Origin: Bradyrhizobium sp. NFR13
GTDB taxonomy: Bacteria; Pseudomonadota; Alphaproteobacteria; Rhizobiales; Xanthobacteraceae
DNA: 64,000 bases
Assembly: GCF_900114605.1 (NCBI RefSeq)
Contig: NZ_FOTP01000001.1
Location: forward strand, 1,488,001 to 1,552,000
Reading direction: 5' to 3'
The notes under the pieces are model-generated. The model searched no databases and was not told the DNA's origin. It worked only from the letters and a program-made list of their open reading frames with translations. This document shows positions 261 to 5,139 of this stretch, piece by piece. Positions within the stretch are counted from its first letter, which is position 1; every line of letters begins with the position of its first letter. Made by a program: the position numbers and the translations under genes.

Positions 261-273
261 CCGAGCATTAAAA

Positions 274-341
274 CAAAAGGCCCGCTCTCACGAGCGGGCC
301 TTTCTTATTCAGTCCAATGCTTCCGGGTTTACTTGCCGGCG
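274..341. repeat. Direct repeat, copy A (distal boundary of the low-G+C block)
   Basis: This 68-bp stretch matches positions 4197-4264 at 61 of 68 positions without gaps, and the first 32 bases are identical. It contains a terminator hairpin, a spacer, and on the minus strand the codons GCC GGC AAG TAA, which end the 138-residue gene here and sucD at the other copy. The pattern is what a duplicated 3' end of sucD would leave. See the findings for alternatives. Confidence 0.8.
276..304. terminator. Bidirectional intrinsic terminator between convergent genes
   Basis: The stem GGCCCGCTC (279-287) pairs with GAGCGGGCC (292-300) around a TCAC loop. A-rich bases lie on the left and TTTCTT on the right, so it can stop transcription of the sulfurtransferase (plus) and of the minus-strand block. 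The same hairpin recurs after sucD. Confidence 0.8.
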
Positions 342-745
342 GCATATCCCCAGCGGTTCCACCGCTGATCCAAAAACTGCTGCGCGATGTAGTTCTTGTC
401 CGTTTCGCTGTACTGACTGTGCATGTAAAGGCGACTACCATCGGGCATCTCAGCCACGGCCATCGAACCGTCTTTGTTCCACTCGTTTTGATATTTCCAC
501 TCAACCTTGTAAAATTTGACGCTTAACTTCTCGGCGGAGCGTGACCGCATGGTCTCATCGAACGGCTTACTAAAGTCGATCTTCCAAGGATCAACTATTC
601 CGCCTTTTGCCATCCAGCGCGGCTGGAATGCGCCGCGTATAGTATCAGGTTCGACCACGTTGTATGCGACGAAGCTTGCACCGATGATCCAAAGCACCGA
701 GATCAAGACCCAAGCACGAAACAGTCCTCGGCCGACGTTCATCAT
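329..745 (-). CDS. Hypothetical single-span membrane protein (138 aa)
   Basis: No named family recognised. One hydrophobic span (about residues 9-28, FRAWVLISVLWIIGASFVAY) follows a short basic N-terminus; the remainder is a soluble, aromatic- and charge-rich domain with no catalytic motif I can identify. GAGGG lies 4 nt before the first ATG and 7 nt before the second (742), so either start may be used. The last residues (AAGK) and the stop lie inside the direct repeat shared with the sucD terminus. It begins 27 bp after the AbiJ-like gene in the same direction and is probably cotranscribed. A role as membrane partner of the cassette is inference only; an ordinary chromosomal orphan is possible. 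Confidence 0.6.
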   Translation of the reverse strand: MMNVGRGLFRAWVLISVLWIIGASFVAYNVVEPDTIRGAFQPRWMAKGGIVDPWKIDFSKPFDETMRSRSAEKLSVKFYKVEWKYQNEWNKDGSMAVAEMPDGSRLYMHSQYSETDKNYIAQQFLDQRWNRWGYAAGK

Positions 746-772
746 AAAGCCCTCTTACGCATCGCGCGTACA

Positions 773-1810
773 TCACACCCTGCGAATAAGACTTTTAATC
801 CAGATCATCGAGTTTTCGACTGCCCAATTGGTCTGATGATCAGTGAGGCTCGGCATGGGCGCGGCTCCCGGGCCGTGTCCAAAGGGATTGCGGACCTTCG
901 TAAAGAAGTCCTTCAACGCCTGCATCTCCCATACCTCGATCAGTTTCGCGCCCCTCAGATTATCAATGTAATTGTGAGCGCCCTTCTCGTTGCCTTTAGT
1001 CAGCTGTTTTTCGTCCGAGATTATCTTGATAGCGCTCTCCAATGCGCGGGCGGCATAGAAGGCAGGGTCGCGCCCGCCCGTATCGCGCAGATCAATAGCC
1101 TCTTTCATGTCGTGGTCGACGTTGTGCCACTTCGGCCCCGCCACCAATTTCCAAAAGGGCGTTTCAATCTCCCGCGCGACTGTTTGGTCGTCAGAGAGTT
1201 GAATAAAGCCATTGTGGTAATGCAACTGACAGCTTGCTTGGCGGAAGCGGGCATTTAGCTCTGTCACCGCCCCCTGAAATTTGGCGTTCAAACCGGCGTT
1301 TGCCGCCCGCACCCCATCCGCACTGCTGCCGGGGACCCGAAGGCCCTTGCGTTCGCCTCGCTTGTCGAACATTTCGGCGATCAGGATATTATCGGGAAGC
1401 TTAGTATTCAATCCCGCCACGAAATTCTCGTGCTCACGAAAGCCAATTTCAACTAAGCTAAGGCGCTCTTTGACATAACGATCAGCGGATATTTTGCTAT
1501 CGAATGGCGTGAACATCCAAGTTTCGCACATCTGTATTCTGCTAGGGGAATAGCCCTGCCATAGATTTTGGTTGTTGAAGTAACCGACGTGCGACGGAGA
1601 TAGCTCCTTCAGCCCAAGCTCTCTCGCTAGCAAATCATGTATCTGCGTCCAGAAATCCTTCCCGCGCTTGTCCTCGTTGCCGTCCACATAGAATGGGCAA
1701 AGATCGTTCAGGAGCTGGAAACTCTGCACGAGAAGGCGGCGATGTTCCTCGTAAAACGTCTCCCAAATACGAGGCTGTGCGTAACGATACGCAAAAATGT
1801 CGGTCAGCAT
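773..1810 (-). CDS. AbiJ-NTD4/HEPN-type protein, putative abortive-infection RNase
   Basis: The 345-residue protein opens MLTDIFAYRYAQPRIWETF and continues through FWTQIHDLLARELGLKELSP and a W/Y-rich stretch to RYVKERLSLVEIGFRE. That pattern matches my recollection of the AbiJ N-terminal domain 4 family. The C-terminal third (about 245-345) is helical and carries R307-NPFG-H312, the R-x4-H signature of HEPN ribonucleases, preceded by an acidic helix (AARALESAIKII). In the AbiJ family such proteins are thought to arrest phage-infected cells by RNA cleavage. The ATG is preceded by GAGGGA about 11 nt away. It lies 173 bp downstream of the coupled three-gene unit and is A+T-richer than the flanking core genes. 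Family assignment is by eye; activity is inferred from the intact motif. Confidence 0.7.
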   Translation of the reverse strand: MLTDIFAYRYAQPRIWETFYEEHRRLLVQSFQLLNDLCPFYVDGNEDKRGKDFWTQIHDLLARELGLKELSPSHVGYFNNQNLWQGYSPSRIQMCETWMFTPFDSKISADRYVKERLSLVEIGFREHENFVAGLNTKLPDNILIAEMFDKRGERKGLRVPGSSADGVRAANAGLNAKFQGAVTELNARFRQASCQLHYHNGFIQLSDDQTVAREIETPFWKLVAGPKWHNVDHDMKEAIDLRDTGGRDPAFYAARALESAIKIISDEKQLTKGNEKGAHNYIDNLRGAKLIEVWEMQALKDFFTKVRNPFGHGPGAAPMPSLTDHQTNWAVENSMIWIKSLIRRV

Positions 1811-1983
1811 CAGTAGCTAGTTCCCTCGCGACTCAAGAGCCTTCACGATGGCACAATGTAGGGTAGCGGCACGAGGTTTGGGACGATTGTACGGGTTATT
1901 CACAGGGGCTGCGTGAAGGTCGCGCGACGGTGACATGCGAGCGAGAGGACGAACTTTGTGCGCGGCACTACGCTTGTTCGCCG

Positions 1984-2508
1984 TTAGCTCGCTGCAGTTT
2001 CCTCGTCTTCTTCGTCAGTGAGCGTGAATAGAAACAGCGCGGCTTCCAGAGGATCGCAACGAAACCAATACTCATTGGTAGCAACACGGTCGAAGTTTTC
2101 GGAGCCGTAGGCATACACAATGAGTGCATCATGCTCGGTCAACCCTTCGGTCAGATCTAGAGCCTGAAATGAAAAATTGCCTTGATCGTCATCGGCGGCG
2201 GAAACCAAATACGGCTTGGCCCTCAAATCAACTAGAAAAGCATAGATGATATCGTTCGGCCTTTTGCCGGATGGCTCCAAGTCGTGATCGAAGTCGAAGC
2301 CCGGCGCATTCCACATTGATGAAGTTTCTCTTCTGTCGGTGCCGGTCCTTCGAACAACCTCCAGGTTATCGACCTCCACCGCATCATCTGTGCAAACGTT
2401 GTCGAAGGTGACGCGCGCAAAATTGCGCACCAATAGAGGGCTACGTTTTGTCTCAGTACGCAGAGCGGCCTCAAAATCGGTCCACGATTTGAGTTTAATT
2501 TCTTTCAC
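1984..2508 (-). CDS. Hypothetical acidic protein (174 aa), coupled to the protease-like gene
   Basis: No recognisable family. The protein opens VKEIKLKSWTDFEAALRTE and ends in the very acidic tail TDEEDEETAAS; the middle is a mixed alpha/beta stretch with no obvious catalytic residues. I chose the GTG at 2508 because GGAG lies 8 nt upstream and the start falls one base past the stop of the preceding gene. An in-frame GTG at 2517 would overlap that stop, and longer starts would read far back into the neighbour. Third in a coupled trio, it is likely made in fixed ratio with the trypsin-like protein. Adaptor, inhibitor or immunity roles are all open. Confidence 0.6.
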   Translation of the reverse strand: MKEIKLKSWTDFEAALRTETKRSPLLVRNFARVTFDNVCTDDAVEVDNLEVVRRTGTDRRETSSMWNAPGFDFDHDLEPSGKRPNDIIYAFLVDLRAKPYLVSAADDDQGNFSFQALDLTEGLTEHDALIVYAYGSENFDRVATNEYWFRCDPLEAALFLFTLTDEEDEETAAS

Positions 2509-2509
2509 G

Positions 2510-3379
2510 TTATTCACTCCGAGAATATGATGCCGTCGATCCCTGCGTGGCTCCATCCGCATCTTGCGCTGTAGATGGTGGCTGCTCTTGTTGCGAGAGC
2601 CATTCGTGATGTCGGAAAAACGCATTGATCGCGCGAGGGTCTATGAAGTGTAGGATGTCGCTGGTTTCGCTGCCCCGGATTACCAAGCCAGCGAAGCCGC
2701 AATAGAAGCCCTGCGCGTCTTCCCCAACATGATGGATCGTTGCGCCGCTCAAGCCATCGGACTTGTAATCGCCTGATCGCTGCATTTTGATGGTATGAAC
2801 GCCAGCCGCCTGAGATGCGCTGACATAAGACGCCGCTGTCGCGATCATCTTCACTCTAAGCCCGCTCAGTGCGCCGCTGACATCGTCAATCTCGACAGAA
2901 CGCAGGTTGGTTGGATAACCGAACACCAGAAACGTGGTTTCCGGGTCACCATTCCAGACATCGGCGCTTTTGATGTCGAAAAATCCAAGATCGATGTCTG
3001 AGGGTTCGTATTTGGTGGGATCAAAATGCATTGCGGTGAGGTCGAGTACTTCCTCGCCTTGCAGTGCCGGGACTTCTTTATTGAGGTTGACCATTTGCTG
3101 GCCTGAAATCAGCATTCGGCCTTCCTTGTCGAGCGGGATGACGACATTCCGAGGCTCGATGTCCGCGATTTGATGGCTGCAGCAAAACAGCAAGTGCTGA
3201 TCCCGAAATTTCAGACCGGTCGCACTGCCGCGAAGCGAATAAGGATGATCGTCTGACCCTGTGAGGCCGAACAGGAGCTTGGTGTGTCGCGCCAGCGCCG
3301 CAGGAAGGCTGCGAACCGGAACATGGATCGATCCTATGCGGATGCTGGCATTCGAAGGCACCTTCTTGATCACCATCAC
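2510..3379 (-). CDS. Trypsin-fold (chymotrypsin-like) protein, probable serine peptidase of a conflict system
   Basis: The 289-residue protein shows the layout of a cytoplasmic trypsin-like peptidase. GSATGLKF (51-58) resembles the G-(T/S)-G-F strand; LLFCCSHQI follows with His69 as the likely catalytic histidine; acidic residues occur at 128-130; FGYP (153-156) matches the usual V-x-G-(F/Y)-P turn; GLSGA (209-213) with Ser211 replaces the classical G-D-S-G-G; GFAGLVIRG closes the barrel. There is no signal peptide. The serine motif lacks the Asp-Ser-Gly-Gly form, so activity is plausible but unproven. The start overlaps the previous stop by one base (TAGTG), or an ATG immediately follows. 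Trypsin-like modules occur in bacterial conflict systems as signal-activated effectors; that role here is inferred. Confidence 0.55.
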   Translation of the reverse strand: MMVIKKVPSNASIRIGSIHVPVRSLPAALARHTKLLFGLTGSDDHPYSLRGSATGLKFRDQHLLFCCSHQIADIEPRNVVIPLDKEGRMLISGQQMVNLNKEVPALQGEEVLDLTAMHFDPTKYEPSDIDLGFFDIKSADVWNGDPETTFLVFGYPTNLRSVEIDDVSGALSGLRVKMIATAASYVSASQAAGVHTIKMQRSGDYKSDGLSGATIHHVGEDAQGFYCGFAGLVIRGSETSDILHFIDPRAINAFFRHHEWLSQQEQPPSTAQDADGATQGSTASYSRSE

Positions 3380-4050
3380 TACATCCGCGCAAACAATCGG
3401 CCACTGCCAAGGAGATCAAAGCAAACGAAGTGCTTGCCGAGGACACTGATTGTGCACCTGTTTGCAATGCCAACGTAATCAGTTCGTCGCGTGTCTATTA
3501 ACTGCGTCAAGATCGAAAAGGCATTGCGCTCGTGTTCTTCGCTGCCGACCAAGACCGAGGCGTTGGAATTTGGATAGATGACGAGGTGCCGGCTCTCGGC
3601 ATCCATCGAATAGATTGATTTTCCTGCTTTGCGCTCCATTGCATCTACGATGTCGGACGCCCAAACGTGTCCCGGCTCGCTTGCGCCATCCGAAAATCGT
3701 CCACCAAGCTCGCCAATCAGCATTACCGACTTGTCCGACCGCTCGAATTTCGTCATCTCCCGCTGGTCATCCGGATGCGTCGCCTCTGTTATTTCAATGA
3801 ACGCTGGGCTAGGTGCGCTACCGAACTCAACACCGAAGTCTGGCAACGGTGGTTGCTCTTTCCAGACCGCCAGTGGCGTCGTGAAGACGTTCGCCAGCAA
3901 GGCTGCCTTAAGAAAGCGGCGGACCACCCACCACTCCTTGTCATCCTGCGTTCGCTTGTCCGAGCCGGATCGTGGACCAACGCGCTGGCCAACCGAGTTA
4001 AACGCCTGATCGAAGGTCGAGATATCTGCGATATAAATCCGAATGGCCAT
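3379..4050 (-). CDS. Hypothetical protein, possible PD-(D/E)XK-like fold (223 aa)
   Basis: First gene of the coupled trio. The segment EWWVVRRFLKAALLANVF is followed by PPLPDFGVEFGSAPSPAFIEITEATH; the pairing of PD71 with a strand ending IEIT (Glu86, Thr88) about 15 residues later resembles degenerate restriction-endonuclease folds (PD...E-x-K), but the lysine is replaced, so nuclease activity is uncertain. The rest is alpha/beta without a clear motif. I prefer the ATG that gives MAIRIYIADIS; an upstream in-frame GTG at 4089 adds 13 residues and neither start has a good Shine-Dalgarno. Low G+C compared with sucD next door. It could equally be a sensor rather than an enzyme. Confidence 0.5.
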   Translation of the reverse strand: MAIRIYIADISTFDQAFNSVGQRVGPRSGSDKRTQDDKEWWVVRRFLKAALLANVFTTPLAVWKEQPPLPDFGVEFGSAPSPAFIEITEATHPDDQREMTKFERSDKSVMLIGELGGRFSDGASEPGHVWASDIVDAMERKAGKSIYSMDAESRHLVIYPNSNASVLVGSEEHERNAFSILTQLIDTRRTDYVGIANRCTISVLGKHFVCFDLLGSGRLFARM

Positions 4051-4196
4051 GTCGCCATTACGCCGCTGATCGGGAGCGGTGTCCAGCACGGGGAACCGTC
4101 CGCAAAGGACGCAATGCGGACACCGATTTCGATTTATCCAGCGACTTCAACGCGCTAGATAGAAGATCATTCTCCCACAAGGGGAGACGGGAAAAG

Positions 4197-4264
4197 CAAA
4201 AGGCCCGCTCTCACGAGCGGGCCTTTCTCATTCAGTCCGATGTGTCGCGGCTTACTTGCCGGCG
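4197..4264. repeat. Direct repeat, copy B (3' end of sucD plus terminator)
   Basis: Partner of positions 274-341: 61 of 68 bases identical. It spans the sucD terminator, the short 3' untranslated region and the last four codons of sucD including its stop at 4252-4254. Together the copies bracket about 3.9 kb of low-G+C DNA. Confidence 0.8.
4199..4229 (-). terminator. Intrinsic terminator of the mdh-sucC-sucD operon
   Basis: The perfect 9-bp stem GGCCCGCTC/GAGCGGGCC with a 4-nt loop lies about 25 bp after the sucD stop. On the minus strand it is followed by TTTTGCTTTTC. It is identical to the hairpin at 279-300. Confidence 0.8.
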
Positions 4265-5139
4265 AGTACATCCACCAGCGTGGTGCCGAGGCGTGCCGGT
4301 GATGGCGAGACGCGGATGCCGGCGGCTTCCATGGCTGCGATCTTCGACTGGGCGTCGCCCTTGCCGCCCGAGACGATGGCGCCGGCATGGCCCATGCGAC
4401 GGCCGGGAGGTGCGGTGACGCCGCCGATGAAGCCGACCATCGGCTTCTTGCGGCCGCGCTTGGCTTCGTCCTTGATGAACTGTGCCGCGTCCTCTTCCGC
4501 CGAACCACCGATTTCGCCGATCATGATGATCGAGGTGGTCTTGGGGTCGGCCAGGAACATCTCAAGCACGTCGATGAATTCGGTGCCCTTGACCGGGTCG
4601 CCGCCGATGCCGACGGCCGAGCTCTGGCCGAGACCGGCCTGGGTGGTCTGGAACACGGCTTCATAGGTCAGCGTGCCGGAGCGCGACAGGATGCCGACGC
4701 TGCCGGGCTTGAAGATGTTGGCCGGCATGATGCCGATCTTCGATTCACCGGCGGTGACGACGCCCGGGCAGTTCGGCCCGATCAGGCGCGACTTGGAGCC
4801 GGACAGCGACCGCTTCACGCGCACCATGTCGAGCACCGGAATGCCTTCGGTGATGCAGACGATCAGCGGGATTTCCGCGTCGATGGCTTCGCAGATCGCG
4901 TCGGCTGCGCCCGGCGGCGGCACATAGATCACCGACGCATCGGCGCCGGTCTTGTCGCGGGCTTCGGCAACAGTGTCGAACACCGGCAGGCCGATATGGG
5001 TGGAGCCGCCTTTGCCCGGCGAGGTGCCGCCGACCATCTTGGTGCCGTAGGCAATCGCCTGTTCGGAGTGGAAGGTGCCGTTCTTGCCGGTGAAGCCCTG
5101 GCAGATGACCTTGGTGTTCTTGTCGATCAGGACGGACAT
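4252..5139 (-). CDS. sucD: Succinyl-CoA synthetase (ADP-forming), alpha subunit
   Basis: With SucC this cytoplasmic enzyme converts succinyl-CoA, phosphate and NDP to succinate, CoA and NTP in the TCA cycle. The 295 residues are close to the usual 290. The CoA-binding Rossmann part has [15 protein letters not shown] (14-28); PNCPG appears at 122-126; and His251 in [15 protein letters not shown] is the phosphohistidine. The ATG is 4 bp after the sucC stop, so the two are translationally linked, matching their 1:1 heterotetramer. The downstream sucA/sucB genes often found here in related bacteria are absent; instead a low-G+C block begins just after the terminator. Identification is secure. Confidence 0.97.

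Follow-up and report, generated by a model that had tools for sequence, protein, structure and literature searches.

A candidate acquired defence cassette behind sucD of Bradyrhizobium sp. NFR13 with a trypsin-fold protease and an AbiJ-type protein

Introduction

Directly behind the core gene sucD of Bradyrhizobium sp. NFR13 lies a block of five genes, termed A to E, and the questions raised by this locus are how the block came to stand there and which of its genes act together. We have analyzed it within a stretch of 64,000 nt (contig NZ_FOTP01000001.1, positions 1,488,001-1,552,000, assembly GCF_900114605.1), here called the window, to which all coordinates refer. A first-pass annotation of this DNA had seen in the block a defence-type cassette and had proposed that A, B and C form a module whose activation releases or accompanies an RNase of the HEPN type encoded by D. 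Tentatively, and with a little less than even confidence, we read the block as one horizontally acquired cassette at the sucD 3' end that holds two separate effector units, a protease-gated candidate nuclease (A-B-C) and the AbiJ-type protein D.

Proteases that switch on nucleases have been described in bacterial defence. In the parts available to us of the work of Tuck et al. 2025 (PMC12799240), Hachiman and AVAST systems encode, upstream of a trypsin-like protease, a metallo-beta-lactamase (MBL) pro-nuclease that becomes active when the protease cleaves it; a caspase complex does likewise in a Canu locus, and further enzyme classes are deemed possible. A cascade of NucA and trypsin is proposed for alphaproteobacteria in the accessible text of Kaur et al. 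2020 (PMC7159879), and the AbiJ family is treated as HEPN abortive-infection proteins in the available portion of Anantharaman et al. 2013 (PMC3710099).

Results

A G+C-poor block flanked by copies of the sucD end

The five open reading frames (ORFs), annotated earlier as same-strand genes, are all encoded on the minus strand between 329 and 4089 and run in the same direction as sucD (Table 1). Genes A and B overlap by one base (TAGTG), and B and C are separated by one base (TAAcGTG), so that the earlier description of three genes joined by stop-start overlaps is nearly right. Spacing is looser further on, with 173 nt from C to D and 27 nt from D to E. The block has a G+C content of 53.7%, and the window outside it has 61.4%. 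When the 64 kb were cut into overlapping segments of 3,851 nt, 0 of the 559 other segments had a G+C content as low as that of the block. The two single lines from which a higher A+T content had been read (45.0% G+C at 1381-1440 and 71.7% at 4741-4800) were quoted exactly; they are extreme, and the block-wide contrast is smaller.

Table 1. Features of the five-gene block and its borders in the window
Feature	Coordinates	Strand	Description
Gene A	3379-4089 (probable start ATG 4050)	-	up to 236 aa (223 aa from 4050); candidate nuclease; W/PDF/EITEAT core
Gene B	2510-3379	-	289 aa; standalone trypsin-fold serine protease, well supported by alignment, AlphaFold2 and Foldseek
Gene C	1984-2508 (ORF from 2625)	-	174 aa; acidic orphan family; start GTG 2508 by homology
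Gene D	773-1810	-	345 aa; AbiJ N-terminal domain 4 and C-terminal HEPN, by Pfam and motif
Gene E	329-745	-	138 aa; hydrophobic N-terminal stretch (by eye); no family
Distal direct repeat	270-341	-	end of E, then terminator-like hairpin
Proximal direct repeat	4193-4264	-	last sucD codons and terminator-like hairpin
sucD	4252-5139	-	core gene; 3' end is the insertion site; outside the cassette

A direct repeat of 72 nt, which the first-pass annotation had not remarked on, flanks the block in two copies that are 89% identical. Its content is the last sucD codons and the terminator-like hairpin after them, and the final codons of E (AGK-stop), which fall within the repeat, are equal to those of sucD. 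The 6.22-Mb assembly holds only these two full copies; nine further rows of the search are partial, of which two (E 0.032) reflect the palindromes at these repeats and all others have E values of 0.2 or worse. In the congeners G066 and G088, the resident sucD terminator agrees over 41-42 nt without a difference with the hairpin half of the distal copy. By this comparison the distal copy resembles the resident end, and the proximal copy, beside sucD, would be the imported one. In a pattern scan we found 5 promoter-like sites (2.6 in shuffled sequences) and 4 terminator-like sites (5.9 in shuffled sequences), so that neither kind is in excess. The hairpins of the two repeats account for three of the terminator-like sites, one nested within another.

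The sucD-sseA junction is an insertion hotspot

We searched 18 genomes of the genus for sucD. Every one has the gene, and its 3' side was read in 16 of them, own genome included (G200 and G203 were left out). The distance from sucD to sseA was taken in the 12 genomes that have both matches; G155 and G202 have no sseA match in the stretch read, and the stretches of G198 and G199, which also lack one, run into contig ends. Four of the 12 genomes (G066, G107, G180, G201) have a gap of less than 0.25 kb, and in the other eight (own, G026, G088, G124, G140, G169, G189, G204) the gap spans 0.9-17 kb of unrelated DNA. A second copy of the sucD 3' end is present in three of the 16 genomes (own, G088, G198), and in G026 only the hairpin is present a second time. 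None of genes A to E occurs in the sucD 3' stretches of the 15 relatives. Their cargo differs from genome to genome. G088 has a protein with a match to the Dsr1 defence model (2.1e-12) and G198 a HARE-HTH protein (2.9e-18); in G199 a TPR protein adjoins a P-loop-like one (partly by eye), and G140, G169 and G189 carry genes that by eye look metabolic. The sucD-sseA junction is therefore an insertion hotspot in the genus, and not purely a defence hotspot.

The sucD end with its terminator is duplicated in the window, and we infer that a single insertion event produced this. Direct repeats of the target-gene end on both sides, together with empty sites in relatives, are what a 3'-end attachment site would show, and an integrase of its own, as an integrative element would carry, is not among A to E in searches of Pfam, NCBIfam and PHROGs, nor is a sensor or ATPase family. 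On sucD as an integration site we found nothing apparently relevant in the literature, judged from listings. In the genus Bradyrhizobium, the sucD 3' end is a defined site at which acquired cargo can be sought.

The genes of the block are rare

In the family sample, own genome included, A and B were each found in 2 of 198 genomes, C in 1 and D in 4; for E the sample comprised 100 family genomes, of which 2 have the gene. Elsewhere B is carried by 9 of 195 genomes in the genus of G167 and by 2 of 398 in the phylum sample, and a profile found it in 3 of 249 genomes of the order sample; the only carrier of C among 240 genomes of the class sample is the own genome. The family, genus, order and phylum samples overlap. 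All five are rare accessory genes in the sampled genomes. No metabolic family scores above its cut-off for A, B or C in Pfam or NCBIfam, and we rejected the idea that they are metabolic genes on this ground. Neither of the two outcomes that the first-pass annotation had named as telling against a defence cassette, core genes in related genomes or metabolic families for the trio, was thus seen. Because of the two full repeat copies, the lack of an insert in four of the 12 junctions (own included), the low G+C content and this rarity, acquisition is the likely origin of the block, and the defence-type cassette of the first-pass annotation is supported.

PADLOC gave no family match for any of A to E, even with E values up to 1 allowed. 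PHROGs gave weak matches only (D 0.0059, B 0.042, A 0.17, C 0.22), which we regard as chance. Scans of genome contigs and viral contigs for B, of viral contigs for A and C and of phages for A were dead ends.

Gene B encodes a trypsin-fold protease

The trypsin-like motif order that had been noticed in B is real. An alignment of seven B-family proteins (20-70% pairwise identity) has 17 invariant columns, among them H69, D113 and G-x-S211-G, and the triad residues are spaced by 39-44 and 93-98 residues, close to the spacings of the chymotrypsin triad. The AlphaFold2 model (pLDDT 75.8, pTM 0.76) has a modelled part of 271 residues and a low-confidence tail at 272-289. Foldseek returned 195 matches for this model at E up to 0.001 (best E 1.7e-6, probability 1.00), and all 50 matches listed are, by title, chymotrypsin-fold proteases or inactive paralogues. 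One B homologue has a Trypsin_2 match of 0.088, below the cut-off. We consider it well supported by motif and model that B is a trypsin-fold serine protease with an active-looking site. The protein is unfused: at 289 aa, PADLOC finds in it no HamA, Avs1a or LmuA. The LmuA model does match three of the seven family members at E up to 1 (best 3.7e-4), the B protein of the window not being among them.

For the surroundings of B we read nine intact homologues (G632, G676, G769, an Agrobacterium plasmid, G714, G751, G669, G1103, G1064). Dropped before counting were G167, where the locus is of the G714 type and B is interrupted by a stop, G749, where B is broken, and G689, a fragment. Among plasmids, B itself had no match at 1e-5, and a search with the G714 homologue was likewise empty at 1e-3; with the homologue from G676, three records matched weakly, one from Agrobacterium and two from Gluconobacter. 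The Gluconobacter records were dropped as well (match over just 35% of the query), and the Agrobacterium one, weak at 21.7% identity and E 1e-4, is counted among the nine. In four of the nine a gene of a nuclease or HEPN family, as judged by Pfam, precedes B on its own strand at a distance of no more than 200 nt. It is DUF4145, a HEPN family, in G632 (6.3e-10), DUF6602 in G676 (1.2e-23; nuclease-like by our own motif reading), HSDR_N_2 in G769 (3e-7) and an XcyI restriction enzyme on the Agrobacterium plasmid (1.6e-104). The 385-aa protein upstream in G714 has an R-x4-H motif by eye and no Pfam match and was counted as neither. In G751 a 226-aa gene with a sub-threshold HEPN_AbiU2 match (0.0026) lies about 1.5 kb upstream, and in G669 a SIR2 gene and a DUF4145/MtlR gene lie nearby on the opposite strand. 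Defence genes stand close to two of the B homologues; one has a retron III-A nearby, the other a SIR2 gene of ThsA-like type (2.6e-28). Genes A, C, D and E are absent from the nine loci of genus g25 that have a B match, within the 13-15.5 kb read.

Two details of these loci may be added. The retron III-A is near the G769 homologue (L084:3555-5957; RT 7.9e-141, PRTase 8.4e-106). In G751 a divergent second ORF faces the B homologue and has a weak Trypsin_2 match of 0.011, below the cut-off (L080:5965-7110).

Gene A encodes a candidate nuclease

We found four homologues of A. One, with 53% identity, stands among prophage-like genes in G042; two, with 48-50% identity, are on Bradyrhizobium plasmids behind a related gene of an unclassified family, with which the homologue overlaps in pNK6a; and one is from a metagenome-assembled genome (MAG) of Caulobacterales, with 39% identity over residues 18-181. 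From the homologues, the probable true start is ATG 4050. W53, PDF at 83-85 and EITEAT at 99-104 are invariant in all five sequences. This core resembles a PD-(D/E)XK site, and the motif suggests, by itself, that A may be a nuclease. No Pfam family was found above the cut-off, a sub-threshold TiaS_FLD match (0.13) being regarded as chance.

The pNK6a homologue carries the annotation 'syntaxin-like protein' (L063:5989-6735). Two neighbours in pNK6a are annotated 'caspase domain'; Pfam finds none in either, and a caspase link of A was not used.

Genes C, D and E

The C protein is acidic, with a pI of 4.33 and 36 acidic against 18 basic residues. The one homologue that we found, on the Sphingopyxis plasmid pSREG01 beside the replication gene repA, fixes the start of C at GTG 2508.

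That D is an AbiJ-NTD4/HEPN protein, as had been annotated, is well supported. AbiJ_NTD4 (PF18863) scores above the Pfam cut-off at 2.5e-16, NCBIfam STM4504_CBY0614 below its own at 7.3e-8, and the R-x4-H motif, RNPFGH (RNPxxH), is kept in all five aligned sequences that cover it, the window included; a sixth row of the alignment is an N-terminal piece and the motif lies outside it. Homologues occur in three genomes of the family (G006, G133, G168) and on seven plasmids, where the matches are 35-70% identical and three of them cover less than half of D; one D homologue lies beside SAVED/ThiF-type genes. These three genomes and seven plasmids have no match to A, B or C, and D has no match in G042 and the plasmids that bear A, nor on the plasmid that bears C. 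Most simply, D would be an AbiJ-type predicted RNase with a putative N-terminal sensor of its own. For E there is no family above the cut-off, TrbM (0.081) being below it and regarded as chance.

Discussion

How might the two units work? Genes A, B and C, packed in operon-like fashion, would form the first. In it B would be the protease, A the effector and C a small acidic partner, and either the form of A itself or the C protein might keep A inactive. A trigger arising in phage infection would lead B to cut A or C, whereupon A would damage nucleic acid and the phage would be stopped at the cell's cost. The second unit would be D alone, an abortive-infection protein of the AbiJ type in which, going by the family, the N-terminal domain would control the HEPN RNase. 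Gene E is probably a small, membrane-bound passenger.

The A-B arrangement can be set beside two groups of known systems. As in the MBL nuclease-trypsin pairs (HamMAB Hachiman, Avs1, Lamassu and DRT in the available parts of PMC12799240), a candidate nuclease gene lies directly upstream of a trypsin-fold protease, the triad is intact, the distribution is patchy and mobile, and a proteolytic switch is proposed. Unlike in these pairs, A has no MBL match in Pfam at E up to 1, B stands alone and is not fused to HamA, Avs1a or LmuA, and we found among A to E no sensor of the helicase, STAND or SMC kind. With the NucA-trypsin 'System 3' and the Trypco/trypsin VMAP, as far as the accessible text of PMC7159879 goes, the block shares a nuclease, in A only a candidate, next to a trypsin-like peptidase in alphaproteobacteria; it differs in that Pfam finds no NucA/HNH, EAD1, Trypco, vWA or MoxR in A to E. 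The Trypco1 and Trypco2 partners are absent from A to E in Pfam. We take Pfam to contain these domains. Because the partner is neither MBL nor NucA by Pfam and B is unfused, A-B belongs to neither group; it resembles the MBL pairs in logic and, by analogy, may work like them. We found no paper that combines such partners in the open-licence literature, judged mostly from listings. D, with its AbiJ-NTD4 and its C-terminal R-x4-H HEPN motif, is like the AbiJ family in the available portion of PMC3710099; nothing about it is distinctive, and it is a new member.

Several points weigh against the protease-gated nuclease that we favour. In all five A sequences the canonical lysine is replaced by Thr101, with P83-D84 and E99 invariant, and the core thus departs from PD...(D/E)-x-K. 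In the PD-(D/E)XK superfamily this lysine varies or migrates. The model of A, built on three sequences, is poor (pLDDT 47.7), and Foldseek returned for it no nuclease fold, the best match being an unrelated protein (E 0.018, probability 0.13). Of the PD-(D/E)XK-like protein announced in the first-pass annotation, a PD...E-x-T motif has stood, and the lysine, a Pfam family and a fold match have not been found; the label is unproven. Homologues of A occur without B, one among the prophage-like genes and two on the Bradyrhizobium plasmids, and that of the Caulobacterales MAG adjoins an ordinary DegP-like protease ORF, which we regard as chance. The C homologue of pSREG01 stands beside repA without a B match. 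Four of the nine B homologues (G751, G669, G1103, G1064) have no nuclease or HEPN gene directly upstream according to ORF lists read mostly by eye, and a pairing of the A-B type is therefore not obligatory. The upstream genes found in the other loci are a suggestive trend and could be chance neighbours. For B itself, the TM-scores by query length are 0.39-0.51 among the 50 matches listed, with root-mean-square deviations of 5-9 A, and neither phmmer with B nor a profile of the seven B sequences found a PDB protease by sequence; we accept the trypsin fold nevertheless, because we regard the fold comparison as decisive.

The same data can be read in other ways. The five genes might be unrelated passengers of a shared hotspot, with A, B, C and D acting separately and no mechanism linking A and B. 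This would agree with the absence of all five from the relatives' loci, with homologues of A, B, C and D that occur without one another and with the mixed cargo of the congeners, where G140, G169 and G189 have the metabolic-looking genes. The one-base spacing in A-B-C and the nuclease or HEPN-family genes directly upstream of B in four of nine loci speak against it, and we consider it rather unlikely. Alternatively, A-B-C could be a toxin-antitoxin-like unit in which A is the toxin, C an acidic inhibitor and B the protease that removes C under stress or infection, so that gating would act on the inhibitor and not on the nuclease. The strong acidity of C, its start one base after B and the rarity of all three genes in the family sample would suit this. 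However, the A-bearing genome and plasmids lack a C match, the C-bearing plasmid lacks an A match, and the order A-B-C is unusual for a toxin-antitoxin pair; such a unit seems unlikely to us.

Very improbable is the earlier scheme, by which the trio would sense infection, B would become active and D, as the shared effector, would be set free or switched on. D does lie on the same strand, 173 nt downstream of C, and one B homologue has DUF4145, another HEPN family, upstream. Against this stand the putative sensor domain that D has of its own, as judged from its family, the genomes and plasmids that bear D without A, B or C, and the nine B loci without D; on the last two grounds we rejected D as effector of the trio. 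What we retain is the pairing of protease B with candidate nuclease A, a reasonable and testable proposal.

A wider view of B is more doubtful than the two-unit cassette itself. B may represent a family, so far undescribed, of small trypsin-fold proteases that stand alone and serve as portable switches for unrelated nucleases, with an upstream slot that would take any effector, be it A, DUF6602, a type I-R-like HSDR_N protein, a type II restriction enzyme or HEPN/DUF4145. If true, this would extend proteolytic gating beyond MBL nucleases, even to restriction enzymes and RNases. The cassette and the B family offer specific candidates in which the protease is unfused and its partners lie outside the MBL class, and they are open to a simple cleavage assay.

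Further observations at the sucD junction

The Dsr1-model match of G088 is a part-length match in a protein of 1,133 aa within the 17-kb sucD insert (L044:2092-5493). In G204, where the sucD insert is 0.9 kb long, an ORF within it resembles by eye a VapC-type PIN protein (L047:840-1830). In the window, a palindromic repeat-like stretch lies at 150-270 between a sulfurtransferase gene and the distal repeat, and comparable palindromic stretches are seen by eye at the same place in G066 and G026.

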